This document shows positions 1-16,984 of a stretch of DNA of 64,000 bases, one piece after another (positions within the stretch are counted from its first letter, which is position 1; every line of letters begins with the position of its first letter). The notes below the pieces were generated by a model. That model had not been told where the DNA came from and did no database searches. It saw only the letters and a program-made list of their open reading frames with translations. The stretch spans positions 11,884 to 75,883 of the forward strand of contig MFNE01000030.1 of the NCBI GenBank assembly GCA_001783695.1, written 5' to 3'. A program made the translations under genes and the position numbers. The stretch is from Candidatus Lambdaproteobacteria bacterium RIFOXYD2_FULL_50_16 (GTDB lineage: Bacteria; SAR324; XYD2-FULL-50-16).

Positions 1-2243
1 GCAGCGGCAGCTTGGGCCACTTCGGTTGCAGCGGCAGCGTCAGCCGCATCGCTGGCGGCGGTGGCCGCAGCCGCAGCCGAATCGGCTGCGTCACTAGCGG
101 CTTGGGCGGTTTGGGCAGCAGCGTCTGCCGCGGCAGACTGGGCGGCTTCGCTCGCGGCCGTCTCGGCGGCAGCATCAGCGGCAGCTTGGGCAACGTTGGC
201 TGCATCAGCGGCAGCCGAAGCTTGAGCCGCTTCGCTCGTAGCAGAAGCATCGGCCGCATCACTGGCAGCGGTGGCATCAGCGGCGGCGGCTTGAGCGGCA
301 GCAGATTCAGCTAAAGCGGCCGCTTCAGCCGCATCGGCTTGAGCAGCGGCCTGATCCGCTGCGTCACTAGCAGTAGAGGCTTGAGCAGCAGCAGCTTGTG
401 CCGCATCGGCAGCCGCTTGGGCGTCGGCGGCCTGGGCCGCTTCGGTAGCAGCAGTCTCGTCTGCCGCATCACTAGCAGCAGTGGCTTGAGCAGCAGCAGC
501 TTGGGCCGCATCGGCAGAGGCTTGGGCGTCGGTGGCCTGGGAAGCTTCAGCAGCGGCAGTCGCGTCCGCAGCATCACTGGCGGCGGTGGCTTGAGCCGCC
601 AGATCCGCAGCCGCTTGAGCGGCTTGGTCGGCAACAGCAGCGGCTTGATCGGCAGCGTCACTAGCAGCAGTCGCCTGGGCCTGAGCCTGGGCCGCAGCGG
701 CTTCGGCAGTGGCCGCATCGGCGGCAGCTTGATCAGCAGCATTGCTGGCAGCCGTGGCATCAGCTGCTTGAGCAGATTCGGTTTGGGCAGCGGTCTCAGC
801 AGCGGCAGCTTCCGCCTGGGCGTCAGCCAAGGCTTGATCGGCGGCGTCACTGGCGGCAGTGGCCGCTTGCGCCGCTTCGGCAGCAGAGGCAGCAGCGAGA
901 TCAGCAGCAGCACTCGCAGCAGCGGCTTCAGCAGCAGCTTGATCGGCCGCATTACTGGCGGCAGTGGCATCGGCTTGGGCGGATTCAGCTAGGGCCGCAT
1001 CAGCCGCCGCTTGTTCTGCTTGGCCTAATTCAGTTTGAGCAATCGCTTGAGCCGCTTGGGCGGCTTCTTGAGCTAATTCAGCAGCGGCTTGGGCATTTGC
1101 TGCGGCTTCAGCAGCAGCTTCGGCCTGTCCGGCCTCAATAGCGGCTGTTTCTTGAGCGGCAGCTAATTGAGCCTCAGCGGCGGCTTCGGCGGCTTGAGCG
1201 GCTTGACTAGCGGCAGCAGCAGCAGCGGCTTGCGCTGATTGGCTGGCGGCTTCGGCTTGGGCGGAGGCGGCAGAAGCTTGAGCAGCGGCGGCCTGAGCGG
1301 CTTCGGCTTGGGCAATCGCGTTGGCCTGTTCTACGTTGCCCGCAATGGCATCAGCCAACGCCTGGGCCCCATCTGCATTAGCCTGAGCAGCATCGGCAAT
1401 GGCTTGTGCCTCGGCGGCAGCATCAGCAGCTACTTGAGCAGCAGCAATGGCGTCTTGGGCGGCAGACTCTAACGCGGCTTGAGCTTCGGCTGCGGCCTGT
1501 GCAGCTTGCGCCGCATCGGCAGCCGCTTGAGCGGCAGCAGTGTCAGTCGTATCTGTCGTATCTGTAGCTGTCGTAGTTGTATCGGTGGTACTAGTTGTCG
1601 TCGTAGTTGTTGTATCAGAGGTAGTGTCCGTGGTGGTATCAGACGTGGCAGTTGTGTCCGTGGTCGTGGTGGTTGTAGTGACGGTGGCCGGGTCAAAGGT
1701 GGCGGTAGCGCCTGTAGTGGGTGTAGCGGGAGCTTGGTCTGCAGGTGCGGTAGAAGCCGCTTCAGCAGCGGGGGCGGCTTGGTTCTGGCTGACTAGAAAT
1801 TCTTCTGGGGCGGCGGACTGCTGGGCTTGAGTCGAGGGACCAACATCCATACCGAAACCGCCTTGTTCAGCCGCTTGCTCTTCTTGAACATCTTGGGTTT
1901 CTTGATCTGTGGCTTGAGGGGCAGCCTGAGCATTTTCAACCGCTTGATTCGCCTGGGTTGCTTGGGCATCTTCGCTTGCCTGGTCACCTAGGTCTAATTC
2001 AGAAGACTTCGCGCTAGAAAAGTTGGAGGATATAACCCCTTCTTGAGCTTCCTTTTCGAAGGTGGCTTCCGACTGTCCCACCACTACGGGAGCCGCATCA
2101 CCAGAGGCTTCTTCCCCTTCGATCTTGCCTTCCTCTTGGCCGCTGAAATTCTTCTTTTCAACGTCCGCAAGGTTAGTGAGTTCGTCAAACTCGATGGTTT
2201 CTTTGGATTGCTCTTTGCCTTTGCCTTTTTCTTGATCAGCCAT
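1..2243 (-). CDS. Giant Ala-rich heptad-repeat protein, likely type I secretion substrate (partial, 3' end outside window)
   Basis: The minus frame is open from an ATG at 2243-2241 to the window edge (747 codons), but it is missing from the ORF track because no stop is in the window. A strong SD (GAGGGG, 3 bases before ATG) fixes the start. The N-terminus (MADQEKGKGKEQ) is charged and acidic with no signal peptide, as expected for a substrate with a C-terminal type I secretion signal. About residues 1-180 are Glu/Gln/Ala-rich. A block of nearly pure Thr/Asp follows (about 185-235, TTTTTTTDTTATSDTTTDTT), then over 500 residues of Ala with Gln, Asp, Glu, Ser and Thr. The motif TAASDAAD recurs at heptad multiples, so a long helix or coiled coil is likely. 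It lies downstream of ABC, hemerythrin, ABC and HlyD genes. I infer a large surface or extracellular fibre. No family was recognised, and the decisive C-terminus is outside the window. Confidence 0.85.
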   Translation of the reverse strand, partial: MADQEKGKGKEQSKETIEFDELTNLADVEKKNFSGQEEGKIEGEEASGDAAPVVVGQSEATFEKEAQEGVISSNFSSAKSSELDLGDQASEDAQATQANQAVENAQAAPQATDQETQDVQEEQAAEQGGFGMDVGPSTQAQQSAAPEEFLVSQNQAAPAAEAASTAPADQAPATPTTGATATFDPATVTTTTTTTDTTATSDTTTDTTSDTTTTTTTSTTDTTTTATDTTDTTDTAAAQAAADAAQAAQAAAEAQAALESAAQDAIAAAQVAADAAAEAQAIADAAQANADGAQALADAIAGNVEQANAIAQAEAAQAAAAQASAASAQAEAASQSAQAAAAAAASQAAQAAEAAAEAQLAAAQETAAIEAGQAEAAAEAAANAQAAAELAQEAAQAAQAIAQTELGQAEQAAADAALAESAQADATAASNAADQAAAEAAAASAAADLAAASAAEAAQAATAASDAADQALADAQAEAAAAETAAQTESAQAADATAASNAADQAAADAATAEAAAAQAQAQATAASDAADQAAAVADQAAQAAADLAAQATAASDAADATAAAEASQATDAQASADAAQAAAAQATAASDAADETAATEAAQAADAQAAADAAQAAAAQASTASDAADQAAAQADAAEAAALAESAAAQAAAADATAASDAADASATSEAAQASAAADAANVAQAAADAAAETAASEAAQSAAADAAAQTAQAASDAADSAAAAATAASDAADAAAATEVAQAAA
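46..958 (-). repeat. 21-bp-phased repeats coding for the TAASDAAD anchor
   Basis: The + strand decamer gc(a/g)t(c/t)(a/g)ctgg or its close variants starts at 46, 88, 256, 361, 466, 571, 655, 739, 844 and 949. All are in one codon phase. The intervals are 42, 168, 105, 105, 105, 84, 84, 105 and 105 bases, every one a multiple of 21 (seven codons). The coded anchor is TAASDAAD or a variant, in repeats of 4 or 5 heptads (28 or 35 residues). Confidence 0.85.
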
Positions 2244-2291
2244 GTTCCCCTCAACCGATTATGGGCGCGTGCCCGTTATTTTTCTGACTTG

Positions 2292-2319
2292 AATATAGCA
2301 CAAAACAGGCAATTGACAA
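2292..2319 (-). promoter_or_regulatory. Sigma70 promoter of the giant repeat protein
   Basis: On the minus strand there is TTGTCA (2319-2314), a 16-base spacer, then TATATT (2297-2292) preceded by TGC, which makes an extended -10. Transcription would start near 2285, giving a leader of about 40 bases before the ATG. The repeat protein can therefore be expressed separately from its transporter operon. Confidence 0.65.
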
Positions 2320-2399: not shown

Positions 2400-2429
2400 C
2401 GCCCACTTTTTAAAAAATAAAAGTGGGCG
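2400..2429 (-). terminator. Hairpin after hlyD, terminator-like
   Basis: A perfect 11-bp inverted repeat (cgcccactttt / aaaagtgggcg) with an 8-base A/T loop lies 11 bases past the hlyD stop. On the minus strand it carries a T-rich loop but no T-run after the stem. It could terminate or attenuate the transporter operon, or stabilise its 3' end. Confidence 0.5.
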
Positions 2430-2440
2430 ATTTCCCTGAA

Positions 2441-3559
2441 TTATCGCTCAGTTAGAGCCCGCTGGGAGGAAGAATATACCGGCTTGAGCAGGTAATGGAA
2501 GATGGTTTTACTACCCGTTTTGATACTGGCGTCTAAGGTCATGCCCGGTAATATCGGGTTGGCGCCAGGGACCTCCCCTAAAAAGGGTTTTTCAAAATCG
2601 ACTACTGCTTTGTAATAAGGCTGCCCGGTCCGGTCCAAAAAGGTAGCCGCCGAAATCTCGCGCAGCACCCCAGCCATACCGCCATAGCGAGAATAGTCGT
2701 AGGCCGTGAACTTGAGTTTGACCGACTGTCCAGGTTGCACATGGCCAATATCTTTAGAAGAGATCTGCACCTGCGCGAAAAGCTTTCGATCAATGGGGAC
2801 AATCTCCATGATCACTGCCGCAGGGGGCAAGATCCCGCCTAAAGAGTGGGCCGAAAACCCGTGAACCGCCCCCGTTGTTGGGGCGCGGATGGTCAATAAA
2901 TCCAGTTTTTCTTGTACTAAGGCAAGTTCACTGCGAACCAAGGCCAAGTCTTCATTGTTTTTGGCCAATTCCTTAAGGGTCTTTGCATTTTCGGCAATCT
3001 CTTCCATCTTGGCCTTGTATTGCTCAACCTGATTTTGAAATGCGGCCCTGCGAATATCACGATACAAAACCAAAAGCTTTAAAATCTTGTCCTGATCTTT
3101 TCGAAACTGCGCTGATTGTGGGTCATCTTCAGGGACGGTTTCACTAAACTGAATGACCCCTTTTTCTTCTATATAGGATTCTAACCGCCGCTTTTCAGCG
3201 ACCAAATATCGCTCCTGGGCTCGAAGCTGTTTTTGTTGGGCACGAATTTCTGGGTTGTCTAAAACCAACATAGGTTGGCCCTTCTGAACGATCTGTCCTT
3301 CTTCAACAAAAATATCCAAAACAATCCCGCCAGAAATGTGCTGTACCGGCTGTATTTGCCCGGTGGGGATGATCTCACCTTTGGCCACGGCAATCTCGTC
3401 CACCTCGGTAATCATCGACCAAGCTAAAAACATCACAAATACCGCCAAGGAAAAGGCCACGATCAACCTCGTGATAAAGGCCCCACCTGACTCCTCTAAC
3501 AGAATCGACTTGGAAAGGTGTTGTGATTCGAGTCGTAGAAACTTTTTAAGTCGTTCCAT
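2441..3559 (-). CDS. HlyD-family type I secretion periplasmic adaptor
   Basis: This is the membrane-fusion protein that bridges the inner-membrane ABC transporter and the outer-membrane factor. It has 372 aa, shorter than typical HlyD/LapC adaptors (about 430-470). It has a short cytosolic N-terminus, one membrane segment (about 30-50), a first lipoyl half (GEIIPTGQIQPVQHISGG, about 61-95), a hairpin coiled coil (about 105-220), a second lipoyl half (LTIRAPTTGAVHG) and a C-terminal beta-barrel region. The coiled coil is short, so the periplasmic channel or its OMF contact may be compact. It starts 7 bases after the stop of the upstream ABC gene, so they are cotranscribed. Confidence 0.93.
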   Translation of the reverse strand: MERLKKFLRLESQHLSKSILLEESGGAFITRLIVAFSLAVFVMFLAWSMITEVDEIAVAKGEIIPTGQIQPVQHISGGIVLDIFVEEGQIVQKGQPMLVLDNPEIRAQQKQLRAQERYLVAEKRRLESYIEEKGVIQFSETVPEDDPQSAQFRKDQDKILKLLVLYRDIRRAAFQNQVEQYKAKMEEIAENAKTLKELAKNNEDLALVRSELALVQEKLDLLTIRAPTTGAVHGFSAHSLGGILPPAAVIMEIVPIDRKLFAQVQISSKDIGHVQPGQSVKLKFTAYDYSRYGGMAGVLREISAATFLDRTGQPYYKAVVDFEKPFLGEVPGANPILPGMTLDASIKTGSKTIFHYLLKPVYSSSQRALTER

Positions 3560-3566
3560 AGTTTTC

Positions 3567-5696
3567 CTAAGCGCCCAAAAATTTGGGCAATATTTCCTCT
3601 TTGCTGCCGTAGGCCCGCATGCGGCCCTTTTCGAGCCAGAGGATTTTGTCAGCTAGCTCGATAAAACTCAAATGGTGAGTGGCTATCAAGATGGTTGAGC
3701 GGCCTTTGATTTTTCTAATCTCGTTTATAAAGGCGGCTTCTTTTTCGGCGTCACCAGACAAACCAAACTCAGGGTCGTCAAATAAAACCAAGCTGGCCTC
3801 TTTTAAAAACACCCGTGCCAGACTGATTCCTTTGCCTAATTTTTCGGCTAACTCGCCCATAGTACGGCTGTTGGCAAAGGTATTAAACCCTTCAGGCAGT
3901 TCCATGATTTCGTCATAAATCGAGGCTTTACGGGCCGCCTCCCAGATCTGCTGACTAGTGGCGGCAGGATTGGCGAGGCGCATGTTTTGGGTTAAGGTGC
4001 CATGGAAGAGTTGGTTCGATTTGGGCACGTAACCGATTGATTTACGAAGTGTAATCGGGTCAATCTGGCGCAGGTTCATGTCGTCGATCAATACCCGCCC
4101 CGCTTGCGGGTGGTAGTAACCTAACACCAACTTGAGCACCGTCGATTTACCCGCCCCATCATGGCCAACAATCGCCAAGGTTTCTCCCTGTTTTAGGTCA
4201 AACTGAACCGCCAAAAGGGCGGGTGGAGCCTCGGGATTGTAACGGATGGAGACGTTGTTAAAGGCCAGTTTGCCGTGAATACTTTTGGTCAAAGACATGT
4301 TTGTGTCGATCCGGGTTTCGATATTCATCGACATTAGCCGGTCCAATTGGTTGACACTTTTGCCTAATTTTCCGACCTGAGTGATAATCCCCAATCCGGT
4401 CTTTACCGGCGCTAACACCCGCCCTAAAAGTAACATACAAGCCATCAAAGCCCCAACCGACATCCCCCCGCCAATCACCTGATACACCCCAACGGTCATG
4501 GTGGCCAAACTGGAAAAGGTCACCAGTGATTGGCTGGTTGTACCAATCAATGCGTTTAGGCGGGCGGCGTAAAAGCTGTTTAAGGAGGCCTTGGCCGAAA
4601 TTTCCCGGTATCTCTGGCAAAAAATACTGGCACTACCGGTAAACTTAATTGCCTGAAAATTCGAAAGCATATCGAGCAAAAACTCTTGCCGCTCGGACGC
4701 GGCTTTAGAGGCCTTGGCGTTGGTTTGTTTAACCAACGGGTTGATAGCAAAAGCGAAGGCAATAAAGATTAAAATGGAAATGGTCGGAATATAGGCGACC
4801 GGTCCGGCAATAACTACCATGCCCACGATCAGCATGATCACAAAGGGCAGTTCAACTAGGGCCGTAAAACCGGGGCCTGCGAAAAACTCGCGGATCGATT
4901 CAAAATCCTTAATGTGAGAGATTTGGCTGGCTAAGCTAGCCTCTTCGGTGAAGCCCGGTGGCAGATAGAGGATACGCCTCAGTACTTCAATCCCCACAAT
5001 ATTGCCCATACGCACACTTACAAAACCAAACAACCGACTGCGAAGCACACGAAAACCAAAATCGCCGATCACAAAGATAAAAATCCCCATAACCAAAAAC
5101 ACCAAGGAGTAGGTCGATTCGGCAACCAACAACTCGTTATAGATGGTCATAACAAACATCGGAGAAATAAAGGTAAAAACCGATAAAATAAAGGTAATGA
5201 TCAACCCTAACATAAAGGAGACTTTAAAACGCCCTAGAGCCTTGGCGAACCATTCTTTTTGGGGTTTTAAAAATTCAATTTTGTCTGATTGCAAGGACTC
5301 GAATAACAAGGCCAAACCTTTGATCGGCTCTGAGGAGATTTGTTTGTAGGTGGCCGACTTACCGTCAAATATTAGTAATTTTCCCTCGACCTGCTCCACC
5401 AATACCTGCGCCGTCCCCCCTTCGGGCACCCAAATACAGGGCAAAAGCCTGGGGTCTAGGTGATCAAGCTGGGTTGAAACCCCTTTGGATTCAAACTTTA
5501 GGATGGCCAAGGTGTTACGGAATTCGGCCAAGTCCATCTTCGAGGCCATGTAGCTATGAGCTTCGGCCAATTGAGATTGGGTCCCTAACCAACCCAAACT
5601 ATCAAGTAAGGGAACCAAGCAATTAGAAAAGGGGCTCCGCTTTTTAAAACGGGTTCTTAATTTAAATCGAATGGACGATTCGTCGGGCCGGTTCAT
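3567..5696 (-). CDS. Type I secretion ABC transporter, live half with C39-like domain
   Basis: At 709 aa this has the usual length for an HlyB/LapB-type exporter. The N-terminal ~130 residues resemble the peptidase C39-like domain; I see no obvious catalytic Cys-His set, so it would dock substrate rather than cut. Membrane segments fill about 155-440. The nucleotide-binding domain has an intact Walker A (GHDGAGKST, about 509), a Walker B reading LVLFDDPE (Asp replaces the catalytic Glu) and an H-loop His (ATHHLS). The signature motif is degenerate: LGKGI where LSGGQ is expected. The ATG directly abuts the hemerythrin stop (TAGATG). With the dead ABC partner upstream it can form exactly one ATP site. 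Family assignment is firm; the heterodimer is inferred. Confidence 0.92.
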   Translation of the reverse strand: MNRPDESSIRFKLRTRFKKRSPFSNCLVPLLDSLGWLGTQSQLAEAHSYMASKMDLAEFRNTLAILKFESKGVSTQLDHLDPRLLPCIWVPEGGTAQVLVEQVEGKLLIFDGKSATYKQISSEPIKGLALLFESLQSDKIEFLKPQKEWFAKALGRFKVSFMLGLIITFILSVFTFISPMFVMTIYNELLVAESTYSLVFLVMGIFIFVIGDFGFRVLRSRLFGFVSVRMGNIVGIEVLRRILYLPPGFTEEASLASQISHIKDFESIREFFAGPGFTALVELPFVIMLIVGMVVIAGPVAYIPTISILIFIAFAFAINPLVKQTNAKASKAASERQEFLLDMLSNFQAIKFTGSASIFCQRYREISAKASLNSFYAARLNALIGTTSQSLVTFSSLATMTVGVYQVIGGGMSVGALMACMLLLGRVLAPVKTGLGIITQVGKLGKSVNQLDRLMSMNIETRIDTNMSLTKSIHGKLAFNNVSIRYNPEAPPALLAVQFDLKQGETLAIVGHDGAGKSTVLKLVLGYYHPQAGRVLIDDMNLRQIDPITLRKSIGYVPKSNQLFHGTLTQNMRLANPAATSQQIWEAARKASIYDEIMELPEGFNTFANSRTMGELAEKLGKGISLARVFLKEASLVLFDDPEFGLSGDAEKEAAFINEIRKIKGRSTILIATHHLSFIELADKILWLEKGRMRAYGSKEEILPKFLGA

Positions 5697-7073
5697 CTAG
5701 TAACTTATGTCAGGGTGACTATAAAGCTCGAAGTCCACATCGTTGATGTGGTTAATCCAGGGCCTTAAAACCATCGTTTTCACCTTGGGCGAAAAGGCTA
5801 AGTTTCCCACTTTAAGGTGGGAGCGTAAATCAGCTAAGTCTTGCAAAATTTCGTCGTGTTGCCTTTTGTGCTCGCGGTACCTAAAAGGGATCTCCAGCGC
5901 CAACCAAGCCTCTTCTTGAGCAAAAAACTGCCTACCTAGGTCGTGTATTTTTTGTAAGAGGTACACCGTTTCTTGGACCAAATCATCAAGGCGCGTCTCG
6001 CCGATTTCCCATGACTCAATAACCAACACCAAGTCTAAAATCTTATCGGTTAGTTTTCGGTGGGACTCATCCAGCCAGTCCATACCGGTGCTGCGCAGGA
6101 AATATTTGGCCTCGTTCCAGTTGCGCACCTGTTTTACTACGGTGGTTAAAATACTCGCCTCCGCGAAGGTCTCCGCATCCACTTCGTTTATATGGTCGAT
6201 CCAGACCAAGATCAAAGAATCTCTAATTTCTTTGACAATACCAGCCCGACAACGGACCAAGTCGTCTCGTAGCGACTCTAATTGTTTAATAATGCGGTAA
6301 TGTTCTTCAAGGTGGAACTCTTTATTGGGTAAATTGAATCGCTCAATGAGCACCCGCTCGCGAGCAAAATGTTCGGCCATTTTAGAGGCGATAATCTGGA
6401 AATGGTCTTGAAGCTGCGCCCCTAATTTATCCGGCAGGAATTGAAGTGCCTTGTTTAGCTTGATAATGGAAACCAAAATATCTTTGTGATCATGGTCCAC
6501 ATATTCAATCCCGAGGTTATGGATTAAAAGGGCCACATGGTCCCACTTTTCCGCGTGGTCCACGATGTTTTGGTGCCAGCGAGAAAGGGTGAAGGTTCGT
6601 CCGTCGGTTTTGTTGACATGGGCGATCATCCAGTCTTGTAAGAAAAGTTTTAAAAGCTGGCCGATCTTGAGTTTGCCTGCTTTAAAGTCCGAGATCATCC
6701 CTTGTAGGGTGTCGATAAAATATTGGTGTTCTTCTTTTTGCTGTGGGCCACCCTCTAAGAGGTATTGCTCTATCATCCACTCTTCGCGGTCAAACTGTTC
6801 GGTGACAAATTCCAAAACACCTTGGAGAAGTTTTCCTTGGGCTTGAATAAAATCCATGTCCCTGGGTTCGTCTTCAAGTAGGTCTTGCAACCGGTTGTTT
6901 TCAAGTACAAATAAAACCATTTGCTTGAAATATCGCTGCATAAAAAACACACCTGTACGAATAATAATTTTGCCAATATCAGGTTGCACCCTTGCAGTCT
7001 GCCAGACCCAACGCTCCCAAGACTGTTGCCGTCTTTCTTCTAGGGTCATGTCTTTTTCTTCGATCATCAGCAT
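5697..7073 (-). CDS. Triple-module hemerythrin protein within the T1SS operon
   Basis: Three hemerythrin-like four-helix modules lie in tandem in 458 aa. The middle one (about 190-300) has all the di-iron ligands by spacing: H196, H235, E239, H254, H258, H294, D299 (DHDHKD, HFARE, FHLEEH, HINEVD). The first (about 40-158) keeps AHVNKTD but has Gln for the HFxxE His. The third (about 330-448) keeps H338, H402, H406 and HINDVD but has Phe for the HFxxE His. So probably one module binds oxygen and two are structural. No signal peptide or membrane segment is present, so it is cytosolic. It sits between two ABC genes with 2 and 0 intervening bases and has an AAGGA SD. I infer that it couples O2 or iron state to secretion; no function is known. 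Confidence 0.88.
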   Translation of the reverse strand: MLMIEEKDMTLEERRQQSWERWVWQTARVQPDIGKIIIRTGVFFMQRYFKQMVLFVLENNRLQDLLEDEPRDMDFIQAQGKLLQGVLEFVTEQFDREEWMIEQYLLEGGPQQKEEHQYFIDTLQGMISDFKAGKLKIGQLLKLFLQDWMIAHVNKTDGRTFTLSRWHQNIVDHAEKWDHVALLIHNLGIEYVDHDHKDILVSIIKLNKALQFLPDKLGAQLQDHFQIIASKMAEHFARERVLIERFNLPNKEFHLEEHYRIIKQLESLRDDLVRCRAGIVKEIRDSLILVWIDHINEVDAETFAEASILTTVVKQVRNWNEAKYFLRSTGMDWLDESHRKLTDKILDLVLVIESWEIGETRLDDLVQETVYLLQKIHDLGRQFFAQEEAWLALEIPFRYREHKRQHDEILQDLADLRSHLKVGNLAFSPKVKTMVLRPWINHINDVDFELYSHPDISY

Positions 7074-7075
7074 GG

Positions 7076-8839
7076 CTATTCCTTAGGAGAAAAGAGGTTG
7101 ATCTCGATATTGCGTGGCCGAGTCTGAGTAGAGGCCCCCATTTTGGTCAATCGGCCCTTTTTAAGGCTAAAGCGGCGGTCGGCCTCGGCTAAATATCGCT
7201 CATGTTCGCTAACCAGAATTATCGTGCAGTTGCCCTTTAATTTATCGAGTACAAACTTAAAGACCCTTTTTGAATCCACATCGGCCACATCCAAGACCCG
7301 GTTGATCAAAAAAATTCTTGGCCTGACTACCAACGCGCGAGCAATGGCAATTCGGTGCAACATCCCCGAGGGCAAGACGCTATTGGTATGACCCCCGACC
7401 AGGGTTTCGTATCCCTTGGGCAACTGGGCCACCATTTCGTCGAGTTCAATTAGGGAGGCGGCATCTAATGCGGAGGACTTTTTGCGGGTATCAAATAGGG
7501 TGATATTTTCTAAAATCGTACCCCGAAAAAGGTAACTGTTCCCCGAAAGATATTCCATCCGACCTTGCAGGTTAGTATGATCCCATTGGAAAATATCATA
7601 CTTATCAATCAACACCTGCCCGTGGCTTGGATTGAAAACGCCACACATAATCAAAAGCATATGGTTAGTGGCGATGGTATCGGTAGAAGAAATGCCAATC
7701 ATCTCGCCAGGATTGATGGTCAGGTTGATTGACTCTAAAATCGGCTCACCTGTGTTTAGATTGTGGTAAGAGACGTTTTTAAGTTCAATCTCCCCTTCAA
7801 TGGCAGATGGGAAAGGGGGGGCTCCAGGTTTGGTGTCAGGCTCGGTACGGGCGATTTTAGAGATTTTTTCTTGTAAAAGATCGGCTTCTGAAAGTTTTAG
7901 CCAAAAGGTCGCCGCTGCCTGCACCGGGCCCAAGGACCTTCCACCTAGCATGGTGCAAGCCGTCAGCCCACCTACCGTCAAAGTTCCTTCTAAGACCCGC
8001 CCTGCCCCAAAACCGATGGTGCCAAACATAATCGCTTGAGAAAACAAAAACCCGATGTTGCTAGGCATGGCGTTCCAAAAGTTCACCCGCATGTTCGAGG
8101 TAGCGGCGTTTGCCTGAAGCCGTTCATAACGGCGCAACATCTGCTCTTCCATGGTCAGGCTTTTGACCTGGCTAATGGCGTCTAAGATCTCAATAATAAA
8201 GTTATATCGTCGGTCGGTCTGGACGGATTGTTCATTTTGGGCGGTTTCCAGGCCCTGTTTGAAATATTTAATAACCCATAAATAAAGCAGAATCATAACA
8301 ATTGGGAACAACACCAACCATCCACCTACAAAGCCAATCGCCAGCAGGAATAAAACCAAAAAGGGCAGGTCTAAAAGCATTTGGAACGCTTGGCCGGCGT
8401 AAAAGCTTTTAAGCTGGCCCACGGTGTTCAGCCGGTCGAGATGAACCCCCACTTCTTCCGATTGGAACCGGGCCAATTGACCCGATAAGAGGCGATTGAC
8501 CGCAGAGCAGCTAAGTAAGTGTTCAAAACGGGCCGCCATCCAACTACTGATCCAGCTTCTGGCGTAGCGCAGCGCCCATTCTAAGCTAAAGGCGATGATA
8601 CAGCCAAAAACCAGCCAGATTAGGGTATCTGTGGTATGGTTGCGGATAACTCGGTCATAGACCTGCATCAAGGTTAGAGGCAGACCTAAAGAAAAAACGG
8701 TAATCAAGCCAGAAGCCACTGCAATCTGTTTAGAACCGACCCAAAGGTGTTTCATCGCCTTGAGTTGCTCAAGCAGGGTGCCCGGATTTTTAAAGTGGTC
8801 GATTAAATCGACCGGTGCTGTTTCTTCAGGATTGGTCAT
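7076..8839 (-). CDS. Type I secretion ABC half-transporter with degenerate (dead) ATPase site
   Basis: It has 587 aa: an exporter membrane domain (about 40-330) followed by a nucleotide-binding domain, without the C39-like domain of its partner. Key ATPase motifs are lost. The Walker A position reads GISSTDTIATNH (about 381) with no GKS/T. Walker B reads IFLINRVLD (about 507) with neither Asp nor Glu. The signature is LPSGM. The fold markers around these motifs are kept, for example GQVLIDKYDIFQW and GYETLVGG. It is first in a tight operon with the triple hemerythrin, live ABC and HlyD. I infer an obligate heterodimer in which this chain supplies the signature motif for the partner's Walker A. 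It is not a pseudogene: the frame is intact and conserved outside the active site. Confidence 0.9.
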   Translation of the reverse strand: MTNPEETAPVDLIDHFKNPGTLLEQLKAMKHLWVGSKQIAVASGLITVFSLGLPLTLMQVYDRVIRNHTTDTLIWLVFGCIIAFSLEWALRYARSWISSWMAARFEHLLSCSAVNRLLSGQLARFQSEEVGVHLDRLNTVGQLKSFYAGQAFQMLLDLPFLVLFLLAIGFVGGWLVLFPIVMILLYLWVIKYFKQGLETAQNEQSVQTDRRYNFIIEILDAISQVKSLTMEEQMLRRYERLQANAATSNMRVNFWNAMPSNIGFLFSQAIMFGTIGFGAGRVLEGTLTVGGLTACTMLGGRSLGPVQAAATFWLKLSEADLLQEKISKIARTEPDTKPGAPPFPSAIEGEIELKNVSYHNLNTGEPILESINLTINPGEMIGISSTDTIATNHMLLIMCGVFNPSHGQVLIDKYDIFQWDHTNLQGRMEYLSGNSYLFRGTILENITLFDTRKKSSALDAASLIELDEMVAQLPKGYETLVGGHTNSVLPSGMLHRIAIARALVVRPRIFLINRVLDVADVDSKRVFKFVLDKLKGNCTIILVSEHERYLAEADRRFSLKKGRLTKMGASTQTRPRNIEINLFSPKE

Positions 8840-9226: not shown

Positions 9227-10636
9227 ATGAGGGGAATTGGCGTCTTTTTGCTCTTTTGCATTTGGTTTGCTCCTGAACTAAGGGCGGTAACCCTACAAGA
9301 GACCTTGCAAAACGGTATGGCCTCGGAAGAAGCGCAGTCTGAATTTTCCAGGAGTCACCAGGCGATTGATTATCGGGCAGAGGAGGTGGACGAACTGACC
9401 GTCAAAAGCAAACTGACATCAAAATTTGTCCGCTCTCGTAATGATTTGGCCGACACCCAAGACGTGGCGGTTACCGCTTCAGATAAATTTACTAGACAGG
9501 TCGCCTATACCCAGACCTTTGACATGGGCCTTGAGTGGAGCCTGACCCACTATGACCGAGATGAAAACCCACTTAATTCGGGTTCGTCCAAGTCTTTTTA
9601 TGGCAAGGATATTTTTGATATTTCGATGGCGATTTGGGGCTCAAGACTCGATAAAGAACGGCTGACCTCCCAAAAAAGGGAGATTGAGTTGGAAGGGGAA
9701 CAGGCTAAAACCAGCGGGGTCGAACGGCAGTATCAGGTTGAATTGGCAAAGGCCTATTTGGATTATTATCTGGCTCAACAAGAAGCCCAACGCAAAGCAA
9801 AATTAGCCAATCTGACCTTTCAAAAATTGCAGTTTATGGAATCCATGGCGCGGCGTGACGCTCCCATGGAATATCAAAACCTGCAAATGGAAGCCTTGCA
9901 GGCAAGGCATGAAGAGGCCCAAGCCCAGGTTAGGGCGGAGCATTTTAAACAACTTTTAGAACTCGCCCAAGGTTGGCCGGTTAAAGACGAGGCTCTACTA
10001 GAAGAAGCACGGCCCCGGATGTTAAAGGCAGAAGAATTGGCCAAACTTTACCAAAACGGGGATCAGGTAAAGGTGCTAGCCAGAAAAATTCGCACTGCCG
10101 AGCGGGACCTAGGGATCGAACGGGCAGGATATCAGCCCGAAGTGATTATTGGGGGATTTACGGGCCGCACCAACAACGGCTCCCAGGACGGTTTTAGCAA
10201 AGGAACCTATGTGGAGATCAACTACCGCTTCGGCGGCGGGGGCTGGGAAAAGGCCTCGCGGTTAGCTTTGGAGCTTGAAGAACTAAACCTTGATCTGGTT
10301 GACTTAAAAAATCAGCAGGTGCACCAAGCGGCTGCGGATTCGGCTGAACTCAAGATGGCGGCTGAGATGGTGGTTATCAAGACCAAACAATTAGAGATTG
10401 CCCGGGGGATTACCAAGCAATCGTTGCAATCCTTCGGGGTGGGGCAGCAGGGGCATTTAGAACTGGTTGGCTACCAAGAAAAGGAGATTAACACCGAGGC
10501 TGGATTAGACAAAGCCAAGGTGGATTTATGGAAAAAACTGGCCGATATCGCCCAAAAGGCGGAAGTCGATCTTTTAGAATTGGCCGGATGGCCTAGTTCG
10601 TCTAATCAGCCGGAAAACTTCCCGGCACAACCATGA
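9227..10636 (+). CDS. TolC-like outer-membrane factor of the type I secretion locus
   Basis: This is the outer-membrane channel partner for the HlyD/ABC complex encoded divergently. It has 469 aa with a signal peptide (MRGIGVFLLFCIWFAPELRA, cleavage about residue 20). Long Gln/Glu/Ala/Lys-rich helices follow in two blocks (about 130-270 and 330-450). A beta-hairpin segment before the second helical block (TYVEINYRFGGGGWEKASR) matches the conserved FGGG turn of TolC-family proteins. The start is followed by a hydrophobic core, which supports the chosen ATG. It is the first gene of a rightward operon; the next starts 13 bases after its stop. Confidence 0.88.
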   Translation: MRGIGVFLLFCIWFAPELRAVTLQETLQNGMASEEAQSEFSRSHQAIDYRAEEVDELTVKSKLTSKFVRSRNDLADTQDVAVTASDKFTRQVAYTQTFDMGLEWSLTHYDRDENPLNSGSSKSFYGKDIFDISMAIWGSRLDKERLTSQKREIELEGEQAKTSGVERQYQVELAKAYLDYYLAQQEAQRKAKLANLTFQKLQFMESMARRDAPMEYQNLQMEALQARHEEAQAQVRAEHFKQLLELAQGWPVKDEALLEEARPRMLKAEELAKLYQNGDQVKVLARKIRTAERDLGIERAGYQPEVIIGGFTGRTNNGSQDGFSKGTYVEINYRFGGGGWEKASRLALELEELNLDLVDLKNQQVHQAAADSAELKMAAEMVVIKTKQLEIARGITKQSLQSFGVGQQGHLELVGYQEKEINTEAGLDKAKVDLWKKLADIAQKAEVDLLELAGWPSSSNQPENFPAQP

Positions 10637-10649
10637 TCGAGACTTAACA

Positions 10650-12890
10650 ATGAGATACTGGCTTTCTTTGATCTGCTTAATACTTTTCGCCTCTTCGGCG
10701 ATGGCCAAGGAACTGGTGATCACCCGCGACAATACCCCAGAGTGGAGTTTTGACCGCCCGATCTGGGCTGAACTGGTTTTAGGGGAGGTCGTAGCCCACA
10801 ACCGCGCGGTGGCCAACCTAATGGCTCACTATAAAACCCAACCCTTGCTAAAAGCCTTAAGCGACGAAGAGTCGGCCGCCTTAGGGCATGGCATGGTCTG
10901 GTGGGATTTTCGCGCCTTGCCTAAATACCCTTTAAACAACAGCCATGGCCTCTATTTCGAAGCTAATTTCCGCGCCACCGAAGACGACTTGACCCTCAAG
11001 TCGGGGATGATGCTAAACAAACGGCTTTCCTGGCTTTTAGAACTACGAGAACGTTTAAAAGAGCAACAAAAAGAATTAGAAGACGCCAAGGCTGGACAGT
11101 TTGTTAAAATGGCCCAAGCGACAGACCGGCTTTATAACCTTTTGGGCCAAATCAACGTCAACAGCCCCATGACACCTGCGCCTTTTAAAGACGGTTTAGA
11201 AGCCCTGCTTAACAAGCAGTCCGAAGCCCGCCAAGCGCAAATCCGTGCGATTGAAGACGAGGTTGACCCTTTAGCCCAGCTTAACAAACAAAGGGCCTTT
11301 TTTGAAGCCGAACTCAAACGCAGAGAAGAACTACTGGCACACAACACCCACCTGTTCCCAGTAAAAGACGACGAGGCCGGGCTTTTGGCCCAAGCCGAAC
11401 GGCTCAAAGCTGAATTTAACTTCTTTTTAGGTTCTATCCGCATCTATGAAGCCCAACTTAACCGAGAACGGGCTAGAGCGTTTGAGGAAGTCCGCAGGGA
11501 ACTAAAAGCCAAACAACCAGAACCGCCAGATCGTGAAAAATATCCGGCTCCCGAGGCTTATGCCAAGGCTCAAGAAGAGTTCCGCTCGGCGATTCGGGCT
11601 AGCTTAAAAGAGCTAGAGGTCACCAAAAGGCAAAACCAAGCCTTAGAGGCTTTAAAAGAAGCGGAAGCAAGAGTGTGGTTAGGCGAAATGGCTACCCAAG
11701 TTTTAAAACCACGGCTAGAAGCTTTAAGTAAGTTAAAAAACCAGCGGGTGACCGTAGAGGATAAAGACCTCCGTTTTGTGGTTAAAGGATTGGATAAGGA
11801 AGAGCTAGGGGTTCGTTTTGGTTATAAAGGAGCCAATTGGGACCAGACTTTCCCTTCACAAACGATGTTAAATAAGGACGATTTTACTGTAGCCGGGCTT
11901 TGGCGGCTGGCTAGTCCTGATGAAAAACGGATGTACTTCACCTTTGCCGGGGTAACCCTAACCCACAAGCCCGATTCAAAGACACGGTCCTATGAATTAA
12001 CCGACCCTCTGCCCTTTTCTGAAGAAGCGGTTTACGAAAAATATGCGATTGCCGACACAGATAAAGCCCGGATCGAGACTAAAAACCTCAACTACGCCCA
12101 CCGAATGCAAGACAAGCTCTGGGACAAAGAGCTAGGAATGGAGTTTGTTTTGGTGGACGGTGGCTGTTACCAGATGGGTTGTTCGCCCAAGCAACGTCGC
12201 GACGCCGATGGTAATCTTTATTCTGCCAATGAGTGTGAGGAAAACTCTCAACCTGCTCACGAGGTCTGTTTAGATTCGTTTTTATTAGCCAAGTTCGAGA
12301 TTACTCAAAAAATTTGGGAACAAGTGATGGGCTCCCAACCCTCCAAGTTTGCTAAGGGACCCGATTTCCCGGTCGAGTCGGTCACCTTGACCGACGTGCG
12401 TGCCTTTTTAAGTAAGCTCAAGTCCCAAGGCAAAAACTACCGCCTGCCGACCGAGGCCGAGTGGGAATTTAGCTGTCGAAGTGGCAAACAGATGGACTAT
12501 GGCACCTCTTCGGGCGCGGCTAACCACGATCAAGCCAACTTCGAATACACCGGAGGCCGAGACCGGTGGGGCGAAACCGCGCCCGTGGGCTCTTTCCCGC
12601 CCAACCTCTTGGGGCTTTACGACATGAGTGGCAACGTTTGGGAATGGGTTGAAGATGGCTATGACGCCAACTACTATGCCTCCAGCCCCAAAAACAACCC
12701 TCTCAATCAACAAAGTGGAGCCAACGTGCTTAGGGGGGGGTCTTGGCTAAGCCATAGCTCGAATCTTAGCTGTTACAAACGGGTGATCAACGCCCCCGAA
12801 TACACGAACTTTACCGTTGGTTTTCGGGTGGTCCGCGAGGACGCCGAGGGTAATAAACCTGAAGCGGCTCCGGCGGCCAAGTCCAAGTAA
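10650..12890 (+). CDS. Secreted coiled-coil protein with C-terminal FGE-sulfatase-fold domain
   Basis: It has 746 aa with a signal peptide (cleavage after ...FASSAMA, about 19). The middle (about 120-370) is a long charged helical region rich in Glu, Lys, Ala and Gln. The C-terminus (about 497-735) is a formylglycine-generating-enzyme/sulfatase-modifying fold: MEFVLVDGGCYQMG, RLPTEAEWEFSCR, LLGLYDMSGNVWEW, VLRGGSW and GFRVVR in the canonical order. True FGE has two cysteines near the end; here only one remains (SNLSCYKR), so catalysis is doubtful and binding is more likely. Extra cysteines (CYQMGC, NECEE, EVCLD) could form disulfides in the periplasm. It is encoded directly after tolC and 5 bases before the TerB-like gene, so I infer an accessory of the secretion apparatus or its surface product. 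Confidence 0.82.
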   Translation: MRYWLSLICLILFASSAMAKELVITRDNTPEWSFDRPIWAELVLGEVVAHNRAVANLMAHYKTQPLLKALSDEESAALGHGMVWWDFRALPKYPLNNSHGLYFEANFRATEDDLTLKSGMMLNKRLSWLLELRERLKEQQKELEDAKAGQFVKMAQATDRLYNLLGQINVNSPMTPAPFKDGLEALLNKQSEARQAQIRAIEDEVDPLAQLNKQRAFFEAELKRREELLAHNTHLFPVKDDEAGLLAQAERLKAEFNFFLGSIRIYEAQLNRERARAFEEVRRELKAKQPEPPDREKYPAPEAYAKAQEEFRSAIRASLKELEVTKRQNQALEALKEAEARVWLGEMATQVLKPRLEALSKLKNQRVTVEDKDLRFVVKGLDKEELGVRFGYKGANWDQTFPSQTMLNKDDFTVAGLWRLASPDEKRMYFTFAGVTLTHKPDSKTRSYELTDPLPFSEEAVYEKYAIADTDKARIETKNLNYAHRMQDKLWDKELGMEFVLVDGGCYQMGCSPKQRRDADGNLYSANECEENSQPAHEVCLDSFLLAKFEITQKIWEQVMGSQPSKFAKGPDFPVESVTLTDVRAFLSKLKSQGKNYRLPTEAEWEFSCRSGKQMDYGTSSGAANHDQANFEYTGGRDRWGETAPVGSFPPNLLGLYDMSGNVWEWVEDGYDANYYASSPKNNPLNQQSGANVLRGGSWLSHSSNLSCYKRVINAPEYTNFTVGFRVVREDAEGNKPEAAPAAKSK

Positions 12891-12895
12891 AAGCG

Positions 12896-13483
12896 ATGCA
12901 GTTACTCCGCCTTTTAGATAAAAACCTCGAGATTCGGGTCGCCTATTTAAGTATGGTGGCCCGAATGGCAAGTGCTGATGGCACCTTGGATGACGAAGAA
13001 TTAGCCTTTCTGCGTCATAAATTAGAGGTGTTTGCCATCCCAGAAGCCGAGCAAACCCAAATCTTAACCCCGGCTAAGCTAGACCCAACCGAGTTGCAAG
13101 CGGTTTTTCGAGAATTGGTCAAAGAAAACCTGCATTACAGCTTTTTGCTCGATCTGATTATTATGGCGGTCGCCGATGGGCACATCCAGAACCGGGAGCG
13201 CGAAATGTTGCAAAAGGTTAAGCAATACATTGGCATACCCAGTTCAGATTACCATAACCTTATCAACTTCGCTCAGGCTTCAGCCGGTCGCGACGACATC
13301 GAAAAGATCGATCCCGCTCACCTCAACGTTTTAGAAAGTTTCTACCGCTGGGCCAAAGAATTCTTGGTGCCCCTTTACGACCAAACCGGTTTTGCACTGA
13401 ACCCCAAGGTGGACCAAGACCTCAAGGAACTCTTTGAAGAACTCACCGCTGAAGATCAAGACGAAGACTCGGATTTGCTGTAG
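12896..13483 (+). CDS. TerB-like (tellurite-resistance/DnaJ-associated) domain protein
   Basis: It has 195 aa. The helical TerB-like fold is suggested by two acidic repeats in the expected places, MASADGTLDDEE (about 23) and AVADGHIQNRERE (about 91), each resembling the metal-binding turn of TerB/DjlA N-terminal domains. No signal peptide is present, so it is cytosolic. It starts 5 bases after the FGE-fold gene and overlaps the next gene, so it belongs to the tolC operon. Tellurite resistance is not implied: there is no ter cluster. Its role in this operon is unknown. Confidence 0.7.
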   Translation: MQLLRLLDKNLEIRVAYLSMVARMASADGTLDDEELAFLRHKLEVFAIPEAEQTQILTPAKLDPTELQAVFRELVKENLHYSFLLDLIIMAVADGHIQNREREMLQKVKQYIGIPSSDYHNLINFAQASAGRDDIEKIDPAHLNVLESFYRWAKEFLVPLYDQTGFALNPKVDQDLKELFEELTAEDQDEDSDLL

Positions 13484-14821: not shown

Positions 14822-16984
14822 ATGAAAGAGATTTTTGATCCGATGGTTTTATTAACTGCCTTAGGTGTACTGGTTGCTGCCATTGGGGTATTTGTAACCT
14901 ATCTCCAATATGATAAGACAGCCGCCAAGTCCCCAAAAATCGATCCCCAAATCATTCAACTCGATTACCAAAGCTCCATCACAAATTTAGCCCATCCAGG
15001 GATGGGTCTTACAGGGTCCCTTACTCAAATCGGCCAACAGATCAATCATAATTACGGCCTCACGGAATCACAACTACAGGATTTAATTAAAAACGTAATA
15101 AAGACTTTACCTAATGAAAATGAAGCCAGTCAGAAGTTGGAAAAATATATCCGTTTAGCGTCGGAATACAAAGAGTTGGCAGAAAAAAACTTGGCAGGGA
15201 ACAAACTAGCCCAAGAAGCGCAGGAAGCGGTGACTGGTGGGCGGCTCGACGAGGCCTTGGCCCTCTACGACCAATCCGAAGCCGCTTGGGCAGAATTAGG
15301 GGAGCAGGCCAAAGCCTTCCAGGCAGAGGAATACTTTGAGGCCGCCAAGATTTTAGAGTTCCAATGCAAATACCCGCCTGCCCTTCTAAAAATCCAAGCC
15401 GCCCTCCAACTAGCCCCCAACCGTTGGGAGTTTAATAACCTTTGGGGGGTTTTGTTAGTGGATACAGTGGACTATCAAGGAGCGATCCAGGCCTTCCAAA
15501 CCGCCCAAACCCAACTCCCCAACCCCCAAGGGGTGGAAGCGGCGAGCCTATTTAACAACCTGGGTAATGCTTGGAGTGAGCTAGGCGAATATGCCAAGGC
15601 CATCGAATTTTACGATCAAGCCTTGCCTATCTTTAAAAAGGCCCTAGGGCCAGAGCATGTTTCTGTGGCCCAAACCTATAACAACCTGGGTACTGCTTGG
15701 AGTGATCTAGGCGAATATGCCAAGGCCATCGAATTTTACGATCAAGCCTTGCCTATCTATAAAAAGGCCCTAGGGCCAGAGCATGTTTATGTAGCCTCAA
15801 CCTACAACAACCTGGGTTTGGCCTGGGCAGCGCGGGGCGAATATTCCAAGGCCATCGAATTTTACGATCAAGCCTTGCCTATCTATAAAAAGGCCCTGGG
15901 GCCAGAGCATGTTTATGTAGCCCAAACCTATAACAACCTGGGTACTGCTTGGAGTGATCTCGGCGAATATGCCAAGGCCATCGAATTTTACGATCAAGCC
16001 TTGTCTATCTTTAAAAAGGCCCTAGGGCCAGAGCATGTTTCTGTGGCTCAAACCTATAACAACCTGGGTAATGCTTGGAGAAATCTCGGCAAATATTCCA
16101 AGGCCATCGAATTTTACGATCAAGCCTTGCCTATCTATAAAAAGGCCCTAGGGCCAGATCATGTTTATATAGCCCAAACCTACAACAACCTGGGTATTGC
16201 CTGGAGAAATCTAGGCGAATATGCCAAGGCCATCGAATTTTACGAAAAGGATTTGAAAATTACTCTAAAGGCCCTAGGGACAGAGCATGTTTCTATGGCC
16301 CAAACCTATAACAACCTGGGTACTGCTTGGAGTGATCTCGGCGAATATTCCAAGGCCATCGAATTTTACGAAAAGGCCTTGTCTATCTTTAAAAAGGCCC
16401 TAGGGCCAGAGCACGACTATCTGGCTCAAACCTATAGCAACCTGGGTACTGCCTGGAGTGAGCTAGGCGAATATGCCAAGGCCATCGAATTTTATAATCA
16501 GGCCTTGCCTATCTTTAAAAAGGCCCTAGGGCCAGATCATGTATCAGTAGCCCAAACCTATAGCAACCTGGGTACTGCCTGGAGTGAGCTAGGCGAATAT
16601 TCCAAGGCCATCGAATTTTATAATCAGGCCTTGCCTATCTTTAAAAAGGCCCTAGGGCCAGAGCATGTTTATTTAGCCAAAACCTATAACAACCTGGGTT
16701 TGGCCTGGGAAGCGCGGGGCGAATATGCCAAGGCCATCGAATTTTACGATCAAGCCTTGTCTATCTATAAAAAGGCCCTAGGATTGGACCACCCTGATAT
16801 AGCGGGAACCTCCTTAAATCTTGCCCTGGCATACGAGGCTCAAAGTGAGCGGCAAAAGGCCTTAGTTTATGCCCAACAAGGGATGGCGATCTTTGAAAAA
16901 AACTTCGCCCAGCTTAACCCCAACCACCCCGATCTACTTAAAGCCCGCCGAGTCCTAGCCCACATTGAGGGCTCAACCCTCTAG
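14822..16984 (+). CDS. Membrane-anchored TPR protein (kinesin-light-chain-type repeats)
   Basis: It has 720 aa. An N-terminal membrane segment (about 8-27, MVLLTALGVLVAAIGVFVTY) anchors it. A helical linker and less regular TPRs follow, then ten near-identical 42-residue TPR units (about 252-671, for example GEYAKAIEFYDQALPI and YNNLGTAW), the spacing of the kinesin-light-chain TPR class. TPR superhelices bind peptides or proteins; the partner here is unknown. The gene is single, preceded by a GGGAGGGG SD. Its repeat array is nearly identical at DNA level, so repeat number may vary between strains. Confidence 0.88.
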   Translation: MKEIFDPMVLLTALGVLVAAIGVFVTYLQYDKTAAKSPKIDPQIIQLDYQSSITNLAHPGMGLTGSLTQIGQQINHNYGLTESQLQDLIKNVIKTLPNENEASQKLEKYIRLASEYKELAEKNLAGNKLAQEAQEAVTGGRLDEALALYDQSEAAWAELGEQAKAFQAEEYFEAAKILEFQCKYPPALLKIQAALQLAPNRWEFNNLWGVLLVDTVDYQGAIQAFQTAQTQLPNPQGVEAASLFNNLGNAWSELGEYAKAIEFYDQALPIFKKALGPEHVSVAQTYNNLGTAWSDLGEYAKAIEFYDQALPIYKKALGPEHVYVASTYNNLGLAWAARGEYSKAIEFYDQALPIYKKALGPEHVYVAQTYNNLGTAWSDLGEYAKAIEFYDQALSIFKKALGPEHVSVAQTYNNLGNAWRNLGKYSKAIEFYDQALPIYKKALGPDHVYIAQTYNNLGIAWRNLGEYAKAIEFYEKDLKITLKALGTEHVSMAQTYNNLGTAWSDLGEYSKAIEFYEKALSIFKKALGPEHDYLAQTYSNLGTAWSELGEYAKAIEFYNQALPIFKKALGPDHVSVAQTYSNLGTAWSELGEYSKAIEFYNQALPIFKKALGPEHVYLAKTYNNLGLAWEARGEYAKAIEFYDQALSIYKKALGLDHPDIAGTSLNLALAYEAQSERQKALVYAQQGMAIFEKNFAQLNPNHPDLLKARRVLAHIEGSTL
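15575..16834 (+). repeat. Ten tandem 126-bp repeats coding for TPR units
   Basis: Ten units of 42 codons share long identical blocks (aaggccatcgaattttacga and aaaaaggccctagggccaga). Variation is concentrated at a few positions: Ser/Tyr after HV, Asp/Asn/Glu before QAL, Ser/Ala after GEY. The near-identity of synonymous sites suggests recent duplication or gene conversion. Confidence 0.85.

Follow-up and report, generated by a model that had tools for sequence, protein, structure and literature searches.

Genes at the locus

The window analysed here, a stretch of 64,000 nucleotides (positions 11884-75883 of contig C30), belongs to a genome of 3.14 Mb (G000) that is 97.9% complete. Its left end holds the beginning of a giant gene coding for an Ala-rich protein, which is preceded on the same strand by components of a type I secretion system (T1SS). 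The remainder of the giant gene was read in L009 (C30:1-16000), where each position equals the window position + 11883. The features of interest are the following, in window coordinates:

1..2243, minus strand: N-terminal 747 residues of the giant Ala-rich protein (gene at L009:7111-14126)
1..1538, minus strand: Ala-rich, heptad-phased, predicted helical region (512 residues, the start of a helical part of about 1,940)
1539..1682, minus strand: Thr/Asp block (residues 188-235)
1683..2243, minus strand: N-terminal head (residues 1-187), acidic, nine Lys, the first ~70 residues resembling a neighbour ORF in genome G023
2247..2252, minus strand: Shine-Dalgarno-like GAGGGG 5' of the ATG (read from the sequence)
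2292..2319, minus strand: sigma-70-like promoter TTGTCA-16-TATATT with TG before the -10 (a consensus match only)
2400..2437, minus strand: terminator-like hairpin CGCCCACTTTTT/AAAAAGTGGGCG between the HlyD and giant genes (read from the sequence, absent from the pattern scan)
2441..3559, minus strand: HlyD-type T1SS periplasmic adaptor (TIGR01843, 278.9 bits, cut-off 208.65)
3567..5696, minus strand: T1SS ABC subunit 1 (ABC1), LssB/LapB-like, Walker A intact, LSGGQ lost
5697..7073, minus strand: triple hemerythrin-domain protein, between both ABC genes
7076..8839, minus strand: T1SS ABC subunit 2 (ABC2), shorter N-terminus, Walker A degenerate, LPSG signature kept
9227..10636, plus strand, divergent: TolC-type outer membrane efflux protein (PF02321, 28.4 bits, cut-off 22)

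The genes upstream of the giant gene on its strand are, in transcription order, those of ABC2, the triple-hemerythrin protein, ABC1 and HlyD. Among NCBIfam models, both ABC ORFs fit TIGR03375 best (E = 1e-136 and 4e-99) but stay under its curated cut-off; their Pfam ABC domains score over cut-off. In an alignment with two related clusters described below (G013 and G023), the Walker A Lys has disappeared from ABC2 of each of the three genomes (TDTIATNH, ENSGTTTT and QDSVRTTS) while LP[ST]G is kept; ABC1 is its reverse, with Walker A kept and the signature lost. These motifs suggest that both subunits may form a heterodimer with a single working ATPase site. Two different ABC subunits are also found in the atypical four-component T1SS of Vibrio, RtxB/RtxE/RtxD/TolC (PMC3034196). 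The likeness is one of component make-up (two ABC subunits, HlyD and a TolC-type protein); the Vibrio substrate is unrelated and the present cluster differs in having one ABC subunit without Walker A and a triple-hemerythrin gene between the ABC genes. Close relatives of this hemerythrin protein occur in only three (G000, G013 and G023) of the 52 genomes sampled from the phylum, which are all of one class, and always between two ABC genes. The window copy has lost part of its His ligands; an oxygen or redox link to secretion is possible.

Extent and putative expression signals of the giant gene

The open minus frame of at least 747 codons claimed by the sequence-only reading is real. It starts with the ATG at 2243 and meets no stop over 747 codons (window 3..2243) up to the window edge; since it runs off the window end, it is absent from the default ORF list. 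An assembly gap of 7 N lies immediately left of the window (L009 11877-11883) and the same frame resumes beyond it. Across a second gap of 9 N (C30:9502-9510) the frame shifts, which is read as an inexact gap estimate. The segments beyond the window, B (788 codons) and C (796 codons), have one stop-free Ala-rich reading each. A stop shortly past the window edge had been named beforehand as evidence against the giant gene, and none is there: the TAG is located at C30:7111, 4,773 bases further left, and is followed by GCCGCCTTCGGGCGGTTTTTTTT, a GC hairpin with a T-run. Because the composition is the same throughout and a scan of the strand found no other promoter-like site than the one at the giant-gene ATG, we infer with some firmness that segments A (the window part), B and C are a single gene; this stays an inference because the frame changes across the second gap. 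The known part of the protein amounts to 2,331 residues, a lower bound given the two gaps, and the whole to about 2,340. The number of repeats is open to revision, as both gaps lie within the gene.

A strong ribosome-binding site and promoter of its own had also been attributed to the gene. GAGGGG and TTGTCA-16-TATATT are indeed present, the latter about 50-75 bp upstream of the ATG, but 0.9 such sites are expected by chance in the region and the promoter may not deserve to be called strong. Since a promoter-like site precedes the giant gene and a hairpin follows the HlyD gene, the giant gene may not be co-transcribed with the T1SS genes.

Composition, phasing and predicted structure

The giant Ala-rich gene is real and the composition of its product is unusual. 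Ala makes up 44-54% of each segment, and the known 2,331 residues include 446 acidic residues, 21 Lys and no Arg, His or Cys, for a net charge of about -425. Large hydrophobic residues are rare, and Pro and aromatic residues are confined to the head and the tail. The N-terminus is not hydrophobic, in agreement with the earlier observation that a signal peptide is lacking. The Thr/Asp block noticed at the same time is present, with 34 T and 8 D in 48 residues, and is probably a flexible linker; the glycosylation suggested for it earlier is a possibility. Beyond it, about 1,940 residues are judged helical by their composition (A 236-747, B 1-498, B 566-788 and C 1-708), interrupted by an Asp/Lys block (B 499-565, L009:10186-10389) that lies on a 60-bp tandem repeat and could possibly be an ion-binding hinge. 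The protein ends in a Gly/Asp-rich tail of 90 residues, devoid of Arg and Lys, that finishes in QNDDLFGV. No match to the giant protein was found among Pfam, NCBIfam or PDB sequences.

The heptad periodicity expected of a coiled coil is visible in several ways. Each of the four helical pieces has its best Ala period at 3.50; the powers of 10.2, 21.8, 7.5 and 17.7 were reached by 8, 0, 131 and 0 of 2000 shuffles, respectively. The third piece is short and its period is not significant alone. In segments A and B, Ala fills 83-85% of one heptad position, and the position three residues before it is 68-75% Ala and 18-19% Ser. The ten [AT]AS[DN]AAD anchors that had been described at multiples of 21 bases were recovered in one register, with spacings of 35, 35, 28, 28, 35, 35, 35, 56 and 14 residues, and the best internal self-matches fall at multiples of seven residues in 54 of the 54 windows with a good match. 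The phasing is real within long stretches, but it is not strict along the whole chain as had been proposed, for all three segments contain off-register anchors and some of the short tandem periods listed by the scan (15, 24 and 27 bp) are not multiples of 21. The repeats of segment C measure 210 bp (70 residues), and further tandem periods include 105, 84 and 21 bp. Differences between the 70-residue units are mostly silent (pS 0.43 vs pN 0.06), so the protein sequence has been under constraint. Duplication alone accounts for the repeats, but not for the main duplications being multiples of 21 bp.

AlphaFold2 models the last 300 residues as one unbroken helix of 208 residues, mostly with pLDDT >90, followed by a disordered tail of 90 residues. 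The first 747 residues were modelled at low confidence (mean pLDDT 45), with a disordered head and Thr block and then long helices. These are single-sequence monomer models and carry no information on assembly. Together with the composition, the Ala period and the profiles of the neighbouring genes, the tail model supports the original notion that a gene next to a T1SS codes for a long helical protein with heptad phasing. If straight and continuous, its helical part would measure about 290 nm, at 1.5 A per residue.

Relatives in other genomes

A related T1SS cluster with an ORF of similarly acidic, Thr-rich beginning was found in two other genera (G013 and G023), both from a different family within the same class. 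The ORF of G023 directly follows HlyD and runs off the contig; it begins with MASEQKKNKSQQEFDEQT, continues with a Thr/Asp-rich stretch, and the alignment of its head to the window head beats 2000 of 2000 shuffles. In G013, HlyD is followed by a second adaptor and a TolC-type gene, two genes on the opposite strand and an acidic, Thr/Glu-rich ORF that leaves the contig end. The G013 head resembles that of G023 (15/2000 shuffles), and its similarity to the window head is not significant (253/2000). Both ORFs, in the parts that can be seen, are acidic and of low complexity and are not Ala-heptad; judging from these sequences, the Ala-rich body is so far known in G000 only. Their missing C-terminal ends were sought on the other contigs and none was found. 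A search of 58 genomes with the C-tail of the giant protein gave chance-level matches only, and a profile of the heads had no match at E <0.07 beyond the three source genomes.

The phylum's further T1SS loci (L047-L050) are ordinary systems with one ABC subunit, and their visible cargo is rich in Asp and Gly, not in Ala. One of them (L048:7297-12000, in G008) has a different giant Asp/Gly-rich ORF, with 1,568 residues before it runs off the sequence read there, beside an ordinary one-ABC T1SS. A Kiloniellales locus recovered as a HlyD relative has HlyD and both ABC subunits, without the hemerythrin gene and without an Ala-rich giant downstream. A literature search for Ala-rich T1SS cargo found none.

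Possible export and function of the giant protein

Extending the contig to the left gave access to the C-terminus, in which a T1SS signal had been anticipated. Its last 20 residues abound in G, D, V, F and L, with R, K, E and P all absent. Such a composition, along with a terminal [FLI][VAI] motif, has been reported for the C-termini of T1SS substrates (PMC8861453). Composition and disorder fit this description and the final GV half fits it, with V last and G in place of F, L or I; a C-terminal signal is plausible. The RTX or Ca-binding repeats that were also expected did not materialize, as the giant protein has no array of GGxGxDxUx nonapeptides and only one isolated match, GGFGMD, in the head. 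Export by the adjacent T1SS is favored by the position of the gene, the similar neighbour ORF in two genera, the lack of a Sec signal and the Gly/Asp tail, which make the proposal credible.

The scenario that we consider fairly probable is that the protein is exported by this T1SS and forms a fibre of Ala-core coiled coils with a structural role at the surface or in the matrix. In that case, the Gly/Asp tail would be recognised by the two-subunit ABC exporter, and the unfolded chain would be threaded in one step through the channel made of HlyD and the TolC-type protein. Outside the cell, the Ala-rich body may fold into helices whose Ala/Ser stripe, made of two heptad positions three and four residues apart, would pack as tight, silk- or Alacoil-like Ala-core coiled coils. 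The helical part could reach a length of up to some 290 nm. The Thr/Asp and Asp-rich blocks would act as hinges, and the acidic head, exported last, would lie nearest the cell. A surface or matrix fibre serving attachment or cohesion would be the likely role. Several points weigh against this scenario: an RTX array that could drive extracellular folding is absent, the final GV only half fits the reported motif, the model of the first 747 residues is of low confidence, the giant gene may be transcribed apart from the T1SS genes, two gaps lie within its repeats, the G013 and G023 ORFs are not Ala-heptad where visible and their C-termini were not found, and the G013 head has no significant similarity to the window head. 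A bolder version, which we regard as doubtful, is a bacterial silk, in which one giant polymer of Ala-core coiled coils would be secreted by a heterodimeric, hemerythrin-linked T1SS, perhaps in response to oxygen or redox conditions, and would fold outside the cell without RTX repeats.

Several other explanations deserve consideration. The net charge of about -425, the absence of Arg and the Asp-rich block would suit a T1SS-exported, soluble and mostly monomeric acidic polyelectrolyte, acting in the matrix as an ion- or water-binding polymer without any coiled-coil fibre, and the Ala stripe is indeed only weakly hydrophobic and large hydrophobics are rare. Yet, such a polymer has no need of a period of 3.5 or of a conserved register, and we hold this explanation to be unlikely. 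Quite improbable in our view is a cytoplasmic helical protein, of a cytoskeletal, scaffold or desiccation type, that merely adjoins the T1SS genes. The missing signal peptide, the promoter-like site and the hairpin after HlyD agree with it; nevertheless, an ORF with a similar head adjoins the same T1SS cluster in other genera, the protein carries a Gly/Asp tail and no other candidate substrate was seen in the cluster.

Giant T1SS-exported adhesins of the LapA and SiiE class are built of beta-rich domains. The present protein shares with them its size, repetitiveness, acidity, T1SS neighbourhood, disordered C-tail and lack of a Sec signal, but differs by its Ala-rich helical heptads. Retention in the LapA manner, with an N-terminal plug in the channel and release by a LapG-type protease, could draw support from the T1SS next to a giant repetitive body and from LssB being the best-fitting model for both ABC subunits. 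We disfavor it as very unlikely, since no LapG-type protease (Peptidase_C93) was found in the 97.9% complete G000 genome (a control genome and G003 do match), and the giant protein has neither an RTX array nor a Pfam adhesin domain. Finally, two internal N gaps, GC-rich repeats and antisense frames that are open in places might point to an artefact, either low-complexity DNA or an assembly chimera instead of a single coding gene. The excess of silent changes between repeats, the non-repetitive head and tail, the ribosome site and the terminator after the stop make this scarcely credible.

To return to the exported fibre, its closest counterpart in way of working may be honeybee silk, whose F1-F4 proteins form Ala-rich helices with small residues at the core heptad positions (PMC12284834). 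Those features are shared with the present protein, as with Alacoils, and no homology is claimed. The coiled-coil regions of the silk proteins have about 210 residues and are distributed over four proteins, whereas a single bacterial chain here has about 1,940 helical residues and hardly any basic ones. Giant fibres that are exported and coiled coils with an Ala core have each been described before; their combination, together with the hemerythrin-linked two-ABC machine beside it, would be a new variation on them, with an unusual cargo on a familiar export route. The giant T1SS cargoes known so far are largely beta-rich, and many of them depend on calcium to fold outside the cell. If confirmed, a helical cargo that is half alanine and free of Arg would represent another way to pass a giant chain along the channel; it would also be a silk-like material with a simple genetic basis. 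Assemblies break inside genes of this kind, which are easily missed for that reason, as illustrated by the gaps in G000 and the contig ends in G013 and G023.

Other genes in the window

The TolC-type gene is followed on the plus strand by genes for FGE-sulfatase/GldK-like and TerB-domain proteins (10650-13483), with spacings of 13 and 5 bases, and the three genes are possibly one operon. Further along the same strand, 14822-16984 codes for a 720-residue protein with many near-identical TPR-like repeats (NNLGTAWSDLGEYAKAIEFYDQAL...).
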